From Promicromonospora thailandica (lineage in GTDB: Bacteria; Actinomycetota; Actinomycetes; Actinomycetales; Cellulomonadaceae), in assembly GCF_024171955.1 (NCBI RefSeq), contig NZ_JAMTCS010000002.1, forward strand, positions 62,001-126,000: 64,000 nt of DNA, in the 5' to 3' direction. A model generated the notes under the pieces. It saw nothing but the letters and a program-made list of their open reading frames with translations, did not search any database and was not told the DNA's origin. Positions 998 through 58,371 of the stretch are shown here, piece by piece. The translations under genes were made by a program, and so were the position numbers. Every line of letters begins with the position of its first letter. Position 1 is the stretch's first letter.

Positions 998-2602
998 TCA
1001 CAGGGTTGCTGGCGGCCTGTCAGAACGAGGCTCCCCCGGAGCGGTGGGTGGGGGCACCTCGAGGCGTTCGGCGGTGCGCTGCGCGTGCGCGACGACCGCA
1101 GCCAGGCCCGTGCCCGCGACCCAGCCGCCGGTGACGTCAAGGCCCGGTTCGGCCCGGACCGCCTCGGCGTACGCCGTCACGGCGGCACGGTAGGCCGGCG
1201 TGGGCGGGGGCAGAGCGCCGTCCCAACGCTGGTGCAGCACCTCGCGGACCCGGTCGGTCAGGTCCACTCCGAGCAGGGCCGAGGCATCACGTGCGGCCTC
1301 CTCGGCCGTGGGCTGCGCGGTCCGCTCGCCCATGCGGCCGTAGCTGAGCCGGACCACGTGCACCCCCGGCCCGGCAGCGGCACGCACCCGCCGGGCGAGC
1401 CAGGGCCACTTCGCCGTCGCGTGGGTCAGCGCCTTGGCGCGCACGGTGCCCGGCGTGGTGCCGGGCGCGACGAGCATCCCGGAGCCACGCGGCGCCGCGT
1501 CCAGCTCGGGCGCGTCGACCAGCAGGGTCACGAGCCGGATGTCGGCGCCGCGCTCGTCGCGGACCGGCGCCATGACCCCGCCGGCTGCGCCTAGTTCGGT
1601 CGGTTGCTTGGTGGCTGCGTCGAGGTCGGTCCCTTGTCTCGAGATCGGTACATCGTCGGACCGATCTCGAGACAGGGGACCGACCTCGCTGGCGGATCTG
1701 GGCAGGCGACCGATCTCGGCGTCCGGCGCCGCCGCCAGGACCACGCGCGGGGTGCGCAGCACCTGACCGTCGGCGGTGCGGACCAGCCAGTCGGCCCCCG
1801 GCGCCGGGGCGGCCACCCGGGCCAGGCTCGTGACCCGCGCGCCGAGGCGGACGTCCAGGCGGTCCACCAGGGTGTCGACCAGCGCGTGGATGCCGCCGTC
1901 GATCCCGCGCACGGCCGAGCCCGGCGGCGCGGCGGCGCGCAGGGAGGCCACGGCGCGGGACAGCGAACCCGTTCCGGCGTAGGCGGCGGAGAGCCCGGGG
2001 GCCACGGCGTCGACGTCGAGCCGGTCCAGCGGCGCCGAGTGCACACCGGAGGCGACGGGTGTCACCAGCCGGTCCGCGACCCGGGCGCCGAGCCGGGAGC
2101 GCACGAGCGTGCCCAGGTCCGTGGTGTCGACGAGCCGCGCGGGCAGCACCCGGTCCAGCGACGCGCGCAGCACCCCCGGCCAGCCGATCGCCCGGCGCAC
2201 GTCGGCGGCCCACGGGCGCGACGGGATACCCAGCACCCCGGCGGCGGGCAGCGGGAACGCGCGCCCCGCGGCGTAGCCCCAGGCGGTGAGCGCGGCGGGC
2301 GCCTCGACGGTCAGCCCCAGCTCGGCGGCCAGCCGCTCGACGGCGCCGCCCCGCACCGCGAAGGACTCCGCGCCGAGGTCCAGCGGCACGTCCGGCACCG
2401 AGGCGAACGCCCCGCCGCGGACCGGGCCGCCGGCGCGGTCGCCGGCCTCCAGGACGACGACGCGCAGCCCCTGCCCCGCGAGGGTGTGCGCGGCGACCAG
2501 CCCCCCGATCCCGGCGCCGACCACGACGGCGTCGACCGCCCCCGCCCGCGCGTCCGCGGTCCCCGCCGGGGCGCGGTCCGCCGGACCGGGGGCCGGGGTC
2601 AC
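998..2602 (-). CDS. hemY: HemY-type FAD-dependent coproporphyrinogen/protoporphyrinogen oxidase with an in-frame palindromic insertion
   Basis: This FAD enzyme oxidises the porphyrinogen to the porphyrin. In Gram-positive bacteria the substrate of this family is usually coproporphyrinogen III, but I cannot tell the substrate from sequence alone. The dinucleotide-binding motif VVVGAGIGG is at residues 26-34, followed by VVLEAGDRAGG. The C-terminal FAD segment (VTGGWVAGTGLAAVVAHA) is intact. Its GTG start overlaps the hemE stop (GTGA), so the two are translationally coupled. At about residues 306-327 the protein contains a 22-residue stretch (EVGPL...PISRQGTDL) encoded by a 68-bp palindrome, followed by a Thr/Gln-rich tail that the family lacks. 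The reading frame stays open through it. Length is 534 residues against roughly 450-480 for relatives, partly because of this insert and the N-terminal extension. Confidence 0.93.
   Translation of the reverse strand: MTPAPGPADRAPAGTADARAGAVDAVVVGAGIGGLVAAHTLAGQGLRVVVLEAGDRAGGPVRGGAFASVPDVPLDLGAESFAVRGGAVERLAAELGLTVEAPAALTAWGYAAGRAFPLPAAGVLGIPSRPWAADVRRAIGWPGVLRASLDRVLPARLVDTTDLGTLVRSRLGARVADRLVTPVASGVHSAPLDRLDVDAVAPGLSAAYAGTGSLSRAVASLRAAAPPGSAVRGIDGGIHALVDTLVDRLDVRLGARVTSLARVAAPAPGADWLVRTADGQVLRTPRVVLAAAPDAEIGRLPRSASEVGPLSRDRSDDVPISRQGTDLDAATKQPTELGAAGGVMAPVRDERGADIRLVTLLVDAPELDAAPRGSGMLVAPGTTPGTVRAKALTHATAKWPWLARRVRAAAGPGVHVVRLSYGRMGERTAQPTAEEAARDASALLGVDLTDRVREVLHQRWDGALPPPTPAYRAAVTAYAEAVRAEPGLDVTGGWVAGTGLAAVVAHAQRTAERLEVPPPTAPGEPRSDRPPATL
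1621..1688. repeat. 68-bp palindromic element inside hemY, copy 1
   Basis: Two 28-bp arms (1621-1648 and 1661-1688) flank a 12-bp loop. The arms match except at one position. The left arm begins CGAGGTCGGTCCC and ends CTCGAGATCGG. A second copy with the same arm length and loop length lies at 25994-26061 inside another gene. Because the element is palindromic, the same peptide ([18 protein letters not shown] blocks) can be read from either strand. The length is not a multiple of three, so keeping the host frame required extra bases at the junctions. Confidence 0.9.
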
Positions 2603-11173: not shown

Positions 11174-12292
11174 ATGGAGTGGCAGGCCTGGCTCGGGATC
11201 GTCGCGATCGTCCTCGCGGTGCTGGCGCTCTCCGTCGCCGTCGTGGTCTGGACGCAGCAGGCGCGCATGCGCCGGCGCGGCCCGCAGCGGGCGATGGCGG
11301 AGGGGGCGGGGCCGGCGCCGCGGCTCGCCGTCGTCGTCAACCCGTCCAAGCCGGGCGCGGGCGGGCTCCAGGTGCAGGTACGCGCGTACTGCAGCGCCCA
11401 CGGCCTGGCCGAGCCGCTCTGGTACGAGACCACCGTGGACGACCCCGGCCAGGGCCCGGCCCGGCGGGCGCTGGAGGACGGCGCCGACATCGTCGTCGCG
11501 GCGGGCGGCGACGGCACGGTGCGCGCCGTCGCCGAGACCATGGTCGACTCGGGCACCCCCATGGGCGTGGTGCCCGTCGGCACGGGCAACCTCCTGGCGC
11601 GCAACCTCGAGCTCCCCCTCACGGGCGTGGACGAGGCCCTCGACATGATCGTGCACGGGCGGACCCGCGCGATCGACGTCGGCTGGCTGCGCGTGACCGA
11701 GTTCGCCGACGAGCCCCGCAACGGCGACCACCCCAACCAGCCGGACCACGAGCCCGACACCGAGCGCCGGCACATCTTCCTGGTCATCGCCGGGCTGGGG
11801 TTCGACGCGGCCATGGTCGCCACCGCCGACGCCACGCTCAAGAAGCGCGTGGGCTGGGTGGCCTACTTCGTGGCGGGCCTGTCCCACATGCAGGCCCGGC
11901 GCATGCGCGCCACGCTGCAGCTCGACGACAGCGCGCCGGTCGAGGCGCGCGCCCGGTCGATCATGGTCGGCAACTGCGGCATGCTCCCGGGCGGCGTCAC
12001 CCTGCTGCCCGACGCCGTGCTGGACGACGGCGTGCTCGACGTCGCGGCGGTCGACGTCCGCGGGGGCGTGTTCGGCTGGGCGCAGCTCACCCTGGAGATC
12101 GCCATGCAGGGCGTGGGCGTGCGCAACGAGCTGCCCGAGAAGCTGGGGCGCATCGACCACACCAAGGCCCGCCGCGCGCGCATCCGCGTGCCCGGGGGCG
12201 AGGAGGCGCAGGTGGACGGCGACCCGCTCGGGCGCGCCGTCGAGATCGACGTGCACGTGCAGGAAGGCGCCCTGCTCGTCCGGGCACCGTGA
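11174..12292 (+). CDS. Diacylglycerol/lipid kinase (DagK/LCB5 family)
   Basis: It phosphorylates a lipid, most likely diacylglycerol or a related lipid, using ATP. One N-terminal membrane helix (WLGIVAIVLAVLALSVAVVVW) anchors it. The catalytic domain shows RLAVVVNPSKPGAGG, the nucleotide-binding AAGGDGTVRAVAE and VPVGTGNLLARNLELPL. The C-terminal part includes GNCGMLPGGVTLLPDA and the acidic QVDGDPLG. Length is 372 residues, against about 300 for soluble relatives, because of the anchor and an acidic, Asn/His/Pro-rich insert (NGDHPNQPDHEPDTE) in mid-domain. The next gene begins 26 bp downstream, so they are likely co-transcribed. Confidence 0.9.
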   Translation: MEWQAWLGIVAIVLAVLALSVAVVVWTQQARMRRRGPQRAMAEGAGPAPRLAVVVNPSKPGAGGLQVQVRAYCSAHGLAEPLWYETTVDDPGQGPARRALEDGADIVVAAGGDGTVRAVAETMVDSGTPMGVVPVGTGNLLARNLELPLTGVDEALDMIVHGRTRAIDVGWLRVTEFADEPRNGDHPNQPDHEPDTERRHIFLVIAGLGFDAAMVATADATLKKRVGWVAYFVAGLSHMQARRMRATLQLDDSAPVEARARSIMVGNCGMLPGGVTLLPDAVLDDGVLDVAAVDVRGGVFGWAQLTLEIAMQGVGVRNELPEKLGRIDHTKARRARIRVPGGEEAQVDGDPLGRAVEIDVHVQEGALLVRAP

Positions 12293-12318: not shown

Positions 12319-15300
12319 GTGAATCCCCGTCCCGCGCGAGCCGTGACCGTACCCGCAGTCCTGGTCCTGCTCGTGTCGGTGCTGCTGGGCCTGGGCGGCC
12401 CGGCGGCGTGGGCCGCGTCCGCCCCGGCCGCGCCGGCCGCCCCGGCCGAGCCCGCGCCCGTCGTGGTGGTCGGTGTGGCAGGACTGCGCTGGACCGACGT
12501 CTCGCGCAGCACCACCCCGAACCTGTGGCACATGATCGGCGGCGGCTCCGTCGCCTCCATCAACGTCCGCACGGCGGCGCCCGCGACCTGCCCCCTGGAC
12601 GCCTGGCTCACGCTGTCGGCGGGCAGCCGCACGGTCTCGGCGGGCAGCGCGGAGCGCGCCGACGCCCCCGACGCGGCCGAGGAGGAGACGCCCGAGGCGC
12701 GCGGGGCGACGTCGTGCACGCCCGTGCCCCGCGCCACCGGTACGGGCGGCGACGGACCGGCGCCCGCCACCGTCGAGGGCTGGGCCGGCCTGCCCGTGCA
12801 GGACGACGACCAGGAGCCCGCCGTCGACGCGGCCAGGACCCCGGCGCCCGGTCTGCTCGGCGAGCTCCTCGACGAGGCCGGCGCCTGCACGACGGCGGTG
12901 GGCCCGGGCGCGGCCGTCATGCTCGCCCGGGAGAACGGCACGGTGGACCGGTACGTCCCGTCGCTCGACGCCTTCATCCGGGCCGCGGCGCCCGAGGAGG
13001 CCGACGACGACGGGCCCACGCGGCCGGCCGTCCCCGGGACGGGCTGGGGTGACGCGCTGACCGAGTGCCCCGTGACCGTCGTCGACGCCGGGAGCCTGCC
13101 CGAGGGGCCGGAGCGCGCAGCGGCCCTGGACGGCCTGGACGACACGCTCAGCACGCTGCGCGGCGGCCTCCCCTCCGGCACCCGCGTCCTGGTGGCCGGC
13201 ATCGCCGACACCCCGCTCACGCAGCAGGGGCTGCAGGTCGTGGTCGACTGGGTGGCCGACGTGCCCCGCGTGCGCTGGCTGACGTCGGAGGCGTCGCGCA
13301 GCACCGGGTTCGTGCAGCTCACCGACCTCACGGCGACCGCGGCCGAGGCGGGCGGCGCGCTCCCCGACCCGGAGGCCGAGGTGCCCGGGCCCGAGCCCGC
13401 CGTCGAGGAACCGGCGATCGACGGCATGCCCGTCGTGGTCGGCGAGCCGCGGCGCACCACGGTGGCCCGCACCGTGGAGAACCGGCAGTACATCAACGTG
13501 CTGGCCGACACGATCCCCGCGCAGGTCCCCGCCTTCGCGGGCGCGATCGTCCTGTTCCTGCTCGTCGCGGTGCTCGTGCTCGTGCTGCCCCGGCGCACCG
13601 GCCGGCCGCGCCGCGAGCCCGGCCCGTACCGGCGGCGGCTCGCGCTGGGGTCCGCGCTGCTCGCGGTCTCCGCCCCCGCGGCGGCCAGCCTGGCCACCCT
13701 CGCCCGGTGGTGGGTCTGGCCCGCCCCGGAGTTCGGGCTGGCGCTGTCCCTGACGGTCGCGACGGTGGTGCTCGCGCTCGCGGTGCGCGGGCTGTCGCGC
13801 CTGCTCCCGCCCGTCCCGTCGCGCACCGCGCTCGCCGCGGCGGCCGTCACGTGGCTCGTGTTCACCGTGGACGGCCTCACGGGGTTCACGCTGCTGCAGG
13901 GCTCGCTGCTCGGGCCCTCGCTGGCCACCGCCGACCGGTTCTACGGCTTCTCCGACGTCGCCTTCGCGCTCTACGCCGGGTCCGGCCTGCTGCTCGCCGC
14001 GGGCCTCGCGGTCGCCGTCGTGCAGCGCCGGCCCGCCGGCCTGCCGGCCGGTGGCGGGCGCCCCGCCCGCGTGCCCTGGGCCGCGCCGCTGGTGGTCGCC
14101 GCCGTCGCGCTCGTCACCGTGGCCGTCGACGCCGCGCCGTTCCTCGGCGACCGGACCCGCGGGCTGCTGCTGCTCGTGCCGTTCGCCCTGGCCGCGCTCC
14201 TGGTGGTGCGTCCAGGACCGCTGGCCCGGTACGCCCGCGTGCGCCGCTGGCTCACGCCGCCCGTGCCCCGGACGGCCCCCGCGCGCATGGCGCGGCCCGT
14301 GCGCGGGGTGCCGTCGGCCGTGCTGGGCCTGTCCGGGGCGCTGCTGCTCAGCCTGCTCTTCGCGGCCGCCCTGCTCCCGGTGCCCGGCGCCGACGCGGCG
14401 GGCGAGGAGTCGGGCTCGCTGTCGGCGGCGTCCCCGATCGTCCCCCCGGGCGGCAGCCTGGTGGTCATCGGCACGCAGGGCCTGCGCTGGACCGACGTCC
14501 AGCCGTCGCTCGACACCGGGCAGGCGCCCGCGCCGACCCTGTACGGCCTCCTGACCGACGGAGCCGACGCCGCGGGCCTCACCCTGCCCAACGGGCGGGC
14601 CGCCCGGTGCCCCGACAGCGGCTGGCTCAGCCTCTCGGCGGGCCGCCTCACCGAGATCGCCGACGAGCGCGACGCCGACCGGCACTGGGTCTGCGACGAC
14701 CTCACGGTGTCGGCGGCGACCGGACCGAGCGACGGGGCGGACGGCGCCGGCGAGGACGCGACGGGTTCCGGCGAGGGCGCCGGGGCTTCCGGCGCGGGCG
14801 GTGCGGACGACGCAGCGGCGGCCGACGGGCCGGTCGCGCCCCGGCCCGGCGGCCCCGCCGTCGTCGACCAGTGGGACCGCCTGCTCGAGCTGCAGCGCGG
14901 GTCGGGCTACGCGGCCCGGCCCGGCACCCTCGGTGAGGCGCTGGGCGACGCGTGCTCCACGGCGGTCGGGCCGGGCGCCGCCGTCGCGCTGGCGGGCCGG
15001 GACGGCGGCGTGGGGCGCTACTTCGACCTGGACGCGGCGGTGGCCGACGGGTCGGGCGCGTGGGACTGCCCGGTCACGTTCGTGGACGCGGGGTCCGCGC
15101 TCCTGGACGTCCGGGAGCGCGCCGAGCTGGAGCGCGAGCCGGACGGCCGCGAGCAGGTCGCGGCACAGCGCGCCGAGCTGGTCTCCGACGTGGACCTCGC
15201 GGTCTGGCGCGTCCTGGAGGCGGCGCCCGCCGACGCGACCGTGCTGGTCATCGACGTGTCCACCGTGCCGGAGCACGCGCTCGAGCTGGGGCTGGCGATG

Positions 15301-25058: not shown

Positions 25059-26645
25059 TCAGGCGGAGCGCCAGAGGTGCATCGCGGCGTACGAGCGCCA
25101 GGGCGCCCAGACCGCGCCCCGCCGGGCGAGCTCCTTGAACTGGTGGGGTCGGGAGGCCTCCGCGTCGACGAGCCCGAGGTTCCGTGCTCCCGCGAGCAGG
25201 GCGACGTCGCCGTCCATGAGCACGTCCGGGTCGCCGAGCACCCGCAGCGTCACGTACCCGGCGGTCCAGGGCCCGATGCCCGGCCGGGCGACGAGACGAC
25301 GGCGCAGGTCGTCCGGGTCGTCGCCGACGCTGAGGGTCAGGCTGCCGTCCGCGAGGTCGCGGGCCGCGGCCAGCACGGTGCCGAGGATCCGGGCGGGGAG
25401 CCGCAGGTGGGCCTCGGCGGCGCTGCGGGCGGGCGCGTCCGGCGCCGGCCCGGCGATCTGCTGCGCCGTCGGGAACAGCCGGTCGAGGCCCTCGAACGCC
25501 GAGGCGTACGGGCTGCCCGCGCCGTGGGCCAGGCGGGTCAGGTGCGTGCGCGCCGCGGCGACGCTGATCTGCTGGCCCACGACCGCGCGGACCAGCAGCT
25601 CCGCCGGGTCGACGGCGCCGGGCACGCGGATGCCGGGCACCGCCGCGACCGACGGCGCGAGCGCCGGGTCGTGCGCCAGGGCGTGGTCGACGGCGACGGG
25701 GTCGGCGTCGAGGTCCAGCAGCCGCCGCACGCGCGCGACGGCGACCGGGGCGTCCGCCAGGTCGGCGAGCTCCAGGTCGAGCTCCACGCGGCCGGTGCCG
25801 GGCCGCGTGACCCGCACCTCGAACGCCCCAGGCCCGTGCGGCAGCGCCACGGTGCGGGCGTAGCGCAGCACGGTCGGCCCGAGCTCCGCGGACTCGACGC
25901 CGGGGAGCGCCCGGACGGCAAGAAACCGGAGCACCCCTGCCGCGTCGAACGGTTCCCGCACGGGCAGCATGAGTGCGACTCGCACACCCCCGCCGAGGTC
26001 GGTCCCTTGCCTCGAGATCGGCCCATCGATGGACCGATCTCGAGGCAAGGGACCGACCTCGCGGGCCGTCCGGCGGGCGCGCAGCTCCGAGGGCGTCGTG
26101 CCGAACACCTCCGACACGGTGTCGTTGAACTGGCGGATCGAGCCGAACCCGGCCGCGAACGCGACGTCCGCCAGGCGCAGGGACGTGCCGACCAGGAGGG
26201 CCCGGGCGGTCTGCGCGCGCTGCGCCCGGGCGAGGGCCAGCGGCCCGGCGCCGAGCTCGCCCACGAGCAGCCGGTGGAGCTGGCGCTCGGAGTAGCCCAG
26301 GCGGGAGGCCAGGCCGGACACGCCGTCGCGGTCCACGACGCCGTCGGCGACCAGGCGCATCGCGCGGCCGACCAGGTCCCGGCGCAGGTCCCACTCGGGC
26401 GTGCCGGGGGCGGCCTCGGGCAGGCAGCGCTTGCAGGCCCGGTACCCGGCCTCGTGCGCGGCCGCCGACGTGAGGTAGAAGGAGACGTTCTCGGCCTTGG
26501 GCGTGCGGGCGGGGCACGACGGCCGGCAGTAGATGCCGGTGGTGCGCACCGCGGTGTAGAACTGCCCGTCGAAGCGCGGGTCGCGCGCGGCGATGGCGCG
26601 GTAGCGCTCGGCGAACGCGGGATCACGGAGCTCGACGTCGGTCAT
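25059..26645 (-). CDS. Fused Ada regulator / AlkA 3-methyladenine DNA glycosylase with an in-frame palindromic insertion
   Basis: It combines three parts. First is an Ada metal-binding, methyl-accepting domain ([10 protein letters not shown] with Cys40 and Cys44, then CKRC). Second is an AraC-type HTH ([31 protein letters not shown]). Third is an AlkA glycosylase from about residue 218, with the helix-hairpin-helix [18 protein letters not shown] and an Asp in VLMDGDVAL. The protein senses methyl damage, regulates genes, and excises damaged bases. ATG of MTDVELRDP is taken as the start, and three more upstream residues are possible. At about residues 196-217, exactly between the HTH and AlkA domains, sits the peptide encoded by the 68-bp palindrome. 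Length is 528 residues. Confidence 0.93.
25994..26061. repeat. 68-bp palindromic element inside ada-alkA, copy 2
   Basis: Two 28-bp arms (25994-26021 and 26034-26061) are perfect reverse complements around a 12-bp loop whose centre CCATCGATGG is itself palindromic. The arms match those of the hemY copy except for one or two bases. Read on the minus strand it encodes [18 protein letters not shown] blocks in the same reading frame as the hemY copy, between two protein domains. Confidence 0.92.
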
Positions 26646-26708
26646 GACACCCATCCTGCGCCCGCCGCCCCGCCCCGCACTAGCGGGATTCGGACACGGC
26701 AGCGGGGC

Positions 26709-41106: not shown

Positions 41107-41166
41107 TTCGAGACCGAGGTTGCTTCGCTATGAAGCCCCTCGAAGCGAAGCAACCTCGGTCTCGAA
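41107..41166. repeat. 60-bp palindrome between convergent genes
   Basis: Two perfect 23-bp arms (41107-41129 and 41144-41166) begin TTCGAGACCGAGG and flank a 14-bp loop. It lies between the carboxyltransferase gene and the convergent TauE gene, where it could terminate both. Its arm contains CGAGGTTG, the same core as the other palindromes, but the remaining sequence differs. Confidence 0.88.
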
Positions 41167-58325: not shown

Positions 58326-58371
58326 CGTGTCAGACGTACGGGTCGCTCGGGGGACCCGTACGTCTGACACG
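58326..58371. repeat. 46-bp palindrome after the subtilase gene
   Basis: Perfect 19-bp arms (58326-58344 and 58353-58371) begin CGTGTCAGACGTACGGGTC and enclose an eight-base loop. It starts 16 bases after the protease stop and has no T-tract. It differs from the other palindromes in core sequence, but shares the near-perfect arm design. Confidence 0.85.

Follow-up and report, generated by a model that had tools for sequence, protein, structure and literature searches.

The palindrome that lies in frame inside hemY appears to belong to a family of nested palindromic repeats that is scattered through the genome and confined to its genus, non-autonomous and REP-like at the 3′ ends of genes and, inside genes, like the Rickettsia palindromic elements (RPE), a reading to which we attach a probability of about 0.6. 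The palindrome itself was confirmed at 1621-1688 of the window (the whole 64-kb stretch of DNA that was analysed; Table 1), and HemY reads through it as 22 residues. The original prediction described a 68-bp palindrome with 28-bp arms; such a palindrome is present, but it is imperfect, with a 10-nt spacer and one mismatch between 29-nt arms that are 97% complementary in an inverted-repeat search (1621-1649 and 1660-1688), and in hemY it is longer than proposed, extending over 1592-1717. The covariance model matches the core on both strands (G000:C2:63622-63687), and the 28-nt arm, allowing at most three mismatches, occurs four times in the window versus never in 100 dinucleotide shuffles. The same element had been predicted in a DNA-repair gene elsewhere in the window, and a second 22-residue insert was indeed located at 25994-26061 in an Ada/AlkA-type gene, where the arms (25994-26027 and 26028-26061) are 34 nt long, 97% complementary and separated by 0 nt. 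An artefactual or chance origin of the palindrome was rejected on the basis of the dinucleotide shuffles, the pairing statistics given below and the zero matches returned by reversed-pattern controls.

Table 1. Features of the window and their coordinates.
Feature	Position	Strand	Remarks
Source window	G000:C2:62001-126000		5.38-Mb draft genome, 24 contigs
hemY-like protoporphyrinogen oxidase gene, 534 aa, holding the extended element	998..2602	-	Orthologues in Promicromonosporaceae; Amino_oxidase domain
Outer left arm TAGTTCGGTCGGTTGC of the extended hemY element	1592..1607	.	Sequence reading and folded pairing; motif 26 nt from the core
66-bp palindromic core in hemY (68 bp including the outer C/G), HemY residues 306-327 (22 residues)	1622..1687	.	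Covariance model
Outer right arm GCAGGCGACCGATCTC of the extended hemY element	1702..1717	.	Sequence reading and folded pairing; pairs with 1592-1607 at 12/16 positions; motif 26 nt from the core
Ada_Zn_binding + AraC HTH (HTH_18) + AlkA_N gene, 531 aa, holding the second copy	25059..26654	-	Pfam domains
Second 66-bp core, residues 199-220 of the Ada/AlkA-type protein	25995..26060	.	Linker between HTH_18 (ends 194) and AlkA_N (starts 228)

The arm is dispersed far beyond these two places. A search with the 68-mer gave 80 matches on both strands, and a covariance model built from 42 copies gave at least 138 strand matches among the best 150 of 6657 candidates, corresponding to ~69 sites in the source genome; an independent scan of the fetched stretches likewise yielded 69 sites, 68 of them in common with the covariance-model list. 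Across the 42 copies, 91.6% of the cells in 31 pairs are paired and 19 pairs have changed on both sides, while none of 500 shuffles scored as high on all five pairing measures and slid partners pair at only 25-49%. Because palindromic form was among the criteria by which the aligned copies were picked, more weight falls on the motif blocks that do not vary and on compensatory changes between orthologous sites than on these stem statistics. The 66-bp core follows a constant plan, in which GAGxTCGGTCnnTTGCCyC is followed by GAGATCGGTC, a short centre and the mirror images of both motifs, and 22 of its 66 columns are invariant across unlinked sites. In 27/69 copies the core is flanked, at a distance of 20-45 nt, by at least one extra TCGGTC-type arm (on both sides in 15), and the outer-arm distances cluster at 26-27, 56-58, 86-89 and 117-120 nt, forming a ladder of ~30-31 nt. 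The hemY copy, with its further outward arms, belongs to this extended form; when these arms are included, the insert spans HemY residues ~296-337.

Locus L050 (G000:C6:289546-290045) holds three copies, at 1247, 1464 and 1681, at intervals of 217 nt, where the coding score is low, and similar clusters occur in genomes G006, G111 and G117 (L276, L260 and L265). No Rfam family reached the gathering threshold in L050 or L260. In a separate comparison with known RNA families, the one match was to a microRNA hairpin, scoring 40 bits against a cut-off of 83; it was taken as chance hairpin similarity and set aside.

The covariance model matches all 13 Promicromonospora genomes, with approximately 12 to 69 sites per genome, scoring having been capped. 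The strict core pattern was found in 12 of the 13 genus genomes versus 1/137 genomes from other genera of the family, and at the level of the order in 1/396, which is the source genome itself. The repeat family is restricted to the genus and nearly absent elsewhere. No description of it was found in the literature by title or abstract start, subscription papers being largely outside this scope, and the Promicromonospora family is apparently undescribed.

The sites lie mainly between genes. Of 69 in the source genome, 6 are within genes; the genes on either side of the intergenic ones are tandem in 36 cases, convergent in 20 and divergent in 7. When one duplicate is removed, 50 of the 75 neighbouring 3′ ends fall within 50 nt of a site versus 4 of the 49 neighbouring 5′ ends (68 sites). 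Random wholly intergenic 66-nt windows, drawn as a control from the 64-kb window alone (93% coding by the same gene caller), were 7% convergent and 45% divergent; of the gene ends next to them, 55% (3′) and 36% (5′) fell within 50 nt. The gain in 3′-end proximity is therefore moderate (67% versus 55%); overall, the counts indicate that the element is under-represented within genes and on their 5′ sides and enriched between convergent genes. Genes are thus not the main setting: the sites lie mostly downstream of stop codons and 63/69 are outside genes. The genes were called by a codon-usage caller trained on 33 genes of the window, and in-gene counts are lower bounds because this caller missed at least one in-gene copy (in L269, the orthologue of L044, in frame).

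This placement recalls two known classes of sequence. In the part of PMC12306157 drawn on here, REP of E. coli are given as 14-40 nt long, and REP/BIME as palindromic, repeated, situated near gene ends and rarely overlapping genes. The Promicromonospora repeats are likewise palindromic, extragenic and close to gene ends, but they are at least 66 nt long, sometimes lie in genes and occur in 13 genomes in which no Y1 transposase was detected. Like intrinsic (Rho-independent) terminators, they form a GC-rich hairpin directly after stop codons; unlike these, they have no U-tract on either side, conserve their arm sequence between unlinked sites and have copies inside genes. It is nonetheless a reasonable, though less probable, reading that the repeats are functional 3′-end hairpins, acting as bidirectional transcript-end signals or RNA stabilisers under selection rather than selfishly, with the in-gene copies being accidental. 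The 3′-end bias and convergent excess would be expected of such hairpins, as would sites common to several species and compensatory changes in the arms, and a second palindrome family of this genome (described below) is intergenic at 23/23 examined sites, none of them divergent. Several observations speak against it: T makes up just 61/552 positions in the 8 nt after the core and A 50/552 in the 8 nt before it, no terminator-like match was found at the hemY copy, the transcript-oriented wobble excess is weak (GT 38 versus AC 23 in 65 tandem copies; GT 2 versus AC 7 in 9 in-gene copies), and the invariance of a third of the core columns between unlinked sites is far above what a stem needs.

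Six genes of the source genome carry the insert, encoding HemY, the Ada/AlkA-type protein, a DEAD-box/HRQ1-type helicase, the L044 protein (no Pfam family; ATPase-like by reading of its sequence), a RecD-like helicase and an MpaB/Lcp-type protein. The prediction of an in-frame peptide that leaves the frame unbroken extends to all six, which share one peptide frame, E[VI]GxLxRDRSxxxPISxQxTDL, at codon offset 0, as do three orthologous copies; seven AlkA copies across genomes also read in this frame. The consensus is open in three frames, so stop codons do not force the choice, and the odds of six alike by chance among three frames are ~1 in 243. The proposed placement in loops is supported, as the positions of the insert correspond to linkers or loops: in the Ada/AlkA-type protein and in the DEAD-box helicase it lies between Pfam domains, in the latter DEAD and Helicase_C, and in HemY residues 304-340, which include it, have pLDDT <50 in the predicted structure (structure analysis covering 31 loci and the window), placing the insert in a predicted disordered stretch. 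The in-gene copy of L269 (genome G117), near 1278, is followed by an in-frame tandem repeat of QPTDLASIAG, which would fit the expansion of an arm.

The best-documented palindromic inserts of this in-frame kind come from Rickettsia, obligate intracellular bacteria in which relaxed selection offers an easy explanation for them; the RPE were reportedly described by Ogata in 2000 and are, to our knowledge, confined to Rickettsia or the Rickettsiales. The excerpts used of PMC2229807 and PMC10969869 present RPE as several families of small palindromes of 105-146 or ~150 bp, intergenic or fused in frame to unrelated protein genes with a conserved peptide, with nearly half of the copies in genes and the mover unknown. 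The Promicromonospora repeats are similarly small, are both intergenic and in frame in unrelated genes, and encode one recurrent peptide; they differ in their 66-bp core, in having only 6/69 sites in genes and most after stop codons, and in their actinobacterial host, the comparison being one of descriptions. The proposal of an undescribed actinobacterial counterpart of RPE accordingly stands in outline, given the in-frame copies and the lack of a description in the literature searched, but its main habitat is intergenic.

Occupancy of the hemY site was compared among orthologues in an alignment of 18 of 79 loci and the window, and proved patchy rather than common to all. By these HemY orthologues the host falls close to Promicromonospora and Antribacter. 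The insert occupies the same loop in two P. iranensis genomes, P. sukumoe and P. soli, and Antribacter gilvus carries a variant nested palindrome there; it is absent in MEB111 and AC04, and P. umidemergens has a possible remnant or scar. The two P. iranensis copies (L080 and L081) differ by paired changes. This distribution, including the possible scar, agrees with a single ancestral, non-mobile HemY insert passed on vertically with loss, which falls only a little short of an even chance as an account of hemY; it accounts for hemY alone, however, and leaves aside ~68 other sites and a RecD-like site that is new in its lineage. In AlkA, readable in 12 of the 13 genus genomes (the G128 sequence is cut), the insert is present in 7/12 and absent in G048, G006, G087, G111 and G105, the inserts of G123 and G117 being of a different subtype. 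On the AlkA tree an ancestral copy and four losses suffice for this pattern, and for HemY and AlkA alike losses from an ancestral insert explain the distribution no worse than gains do. Across 10 other genomes, a scan of 40 kb around AlkA (37.6 kb in a single case) gave no further copies, so that this neighbourhood offers no empty intergenic site for comparison. One in-frame TGA occurs within the match in the G111 orthologue (L205).

The RecD-like insert behaves differently. It is occupied in the source genome and absent in 7/7 other readable orthologues, including that of G048, the nearest relative on the AlkA tree. The loop exceeds that of close orthologues by only 14 residues rather than 22. 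The RecD-like copy is the clearest lineage-specific gain, although by its loop length it is not a precise insertion. Among 56 other-species loci, chosen as the best matches to a model built from the source genome's own copies, 26 share at least one flank with a site of that genome and 21 share both; since many sites are common to several species, most are old. The original interpretation is partly supported: the arm is not confined to two places, HemY orthologues do not all share the stretch, HemY and AlkA occupancy is patchy and the RecD-like copy is a gain. The age and sharing of most sites, and the searches for target-site duplications and a Y1 transposase reported below, do not support it.

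Old sites raise the question of how the arms remain complementary. In 14 orthologous neighbourhoods, to which the flank-sharing loci contribute, with one pair taken from each, there are 53 two-sided compensatory versus 27 one-sided changes, and orthologous copies are closer to each other than to paralogues in 9 neighbourhoods but not in 5. Selection on a hairpin, a palindromic protein site or arm-on-arm template switching could each maintain the arms, and the wobble pairs do not decide among them. Taken further, the last of these becomes an explanation of the whole family, in which template switching at the replication fork copies arm onto arm and keeps old palindromes perfect with neither selection nor transposition. 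It draws on the majority of two-sided changes, on the lack of a strong wobble excess and on tandem arm expansion, seen as EVGTSLTSGA three times in the G117 AlkA and as the QPTDLASIAG repeats of L269; we think it unlikely, as it leaves both the motif invariance at unlinked sites and the RecD gain unexplained. Species-wise homogenisation of copies was also considered and is not supported, with similarities of 49.4/66 within genomes and 50.6 between genomes and 480 of 500 permutations as high, in a test that is biased because other genomes were sampled by their best-scoring sites only.

REP are linked to a RAYT (Y1) transposase in the genome. No such transposase (PF01797) was detected in any of the 13 genus genomes at E 0.001, whereas controls were positive in 5/14, including E. 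coli. No clean or consistent target-site duplication was found at the element edges, a check proposed with the original prediction: 8 of 112 offset/length combinations gave z >2.5 (best 3.7, none shorter than 6 nt) when flanks were shuffled between loci, which leaves local composition uncontrolled. A phage or plasmid origin was rejected, as the core pattern had 0 matches in viral contigs and the 68-mer had no match in phages or plasmids at E 0.001. These results bear on the possibility that the family is a classical MITE, derived from a DDE insertion sequence whose terminal inverted repeats it shares (ends like GAGGTCGGTC) and unable to move by itself. In the passages of PMC2229807 used, the bacterial MITEs Correia/NEMIS, ERIC and RUP have a non-autonomous size, inverted repeats and occasional open frames, and the Promicromonospora repeats share all of these; they differ in that no clean target-site duplication was found and no parent transposase is known. 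Terminal inverted repeats, many copies and a lineage-specific gain are what a MITE would leave. We nonetheless consider this quite improbable, as the repeats have no internal non-palindromic DNA, and no clean duplication, no parent element (in a transposase search for PF01797 only) and no match in phage, plasmid and viral-contig collections was found.

For the repeat family as we read it, movement would be in trans: we suggest that the element codes no mover of its own and would be copied by a factor with sequence specificity for the TCGG/GAGATCGG blocks, which are invariant. The main argument for such a factor is that these blocks stay constant even at old sites with no linkage to one another, whereas changes at other positions come in pairs. 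Copies would persist at places where a strong hairpin does no harm or is of use, namely at transcript ends, and rarely in protein linkers, where they may be tolerated because 22 codons with no stop leave the frame intact. The element would then behave like REP/BIME outside genes and like RPE within them, belonging to either only by analogy.

The family, REP-like in its placement and RPE-like within genes, is real. Its hosts are free-living, high-GC soil bacteria with large genomes, and among the proteins that carry inserts are conserved enzymes (HemY, Ada/AlkA, RecD-like and HRQ1-like helicases). Because occupied as well as empty orthologues are available, both spread without a visible transposase and the role of repeats as a regular source of protein linkers become testable. 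More tentatively, the Promicromonospora repeats may be one branch of an undescribed Micrococcales superfamily of nested palindromes, with lineage-specific sequences on a shared plan (motif, ~19-20 nt, same motif, centre, mirror image), a factor that co-evolves with the motif, and leakage into genes that gives rise to new linkers and loops. Isoptericola chiayiensis has 16 sites of its own palindrome on the same nested plan with another sequence (GAGGTCGTACCTTCCGTC - GCGGTCGTAC), and none were found in three other genomes; 10 palindromes with this plan exceed the threshold, in 9 of 15 fetched regions. Two copies of a third type occur in Cellulomonas sp. PhB143 and one palindrome of a fourth in Actinotalea solisilvae. 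The same plan with different sequences between genera hints at a partner protein that might be isolated.

Other palindromes were observed in passing. Isoptericola cucumis L302 carries two copies of another long palindrome with TTCGAGAACGCCCTCGTGGACGAAACC arms, 1.2 kb apart (12012-12085 and 13240-13307). The second dispersed palindrome of the window, at 41107-41166 (60 bp, TTCGAGACCGAGGTTGCTTCG arms), has at least 40 sites in the source genome, 40 of the 61 candidates having been scored, and is matched in 6 other genomes of the genus; its 23 examined sites comprise 12 convergent and 11 tandem positions. A third, at 58326-58371 (46 bp, CGTGTCAGACGTACGGGTC arms), has similar sequences near AlkA in G097 (L227:19535-19578) and G117 (L237:19912-19942) and a look-alike in P. 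sukumoe (L094:6570-6611).
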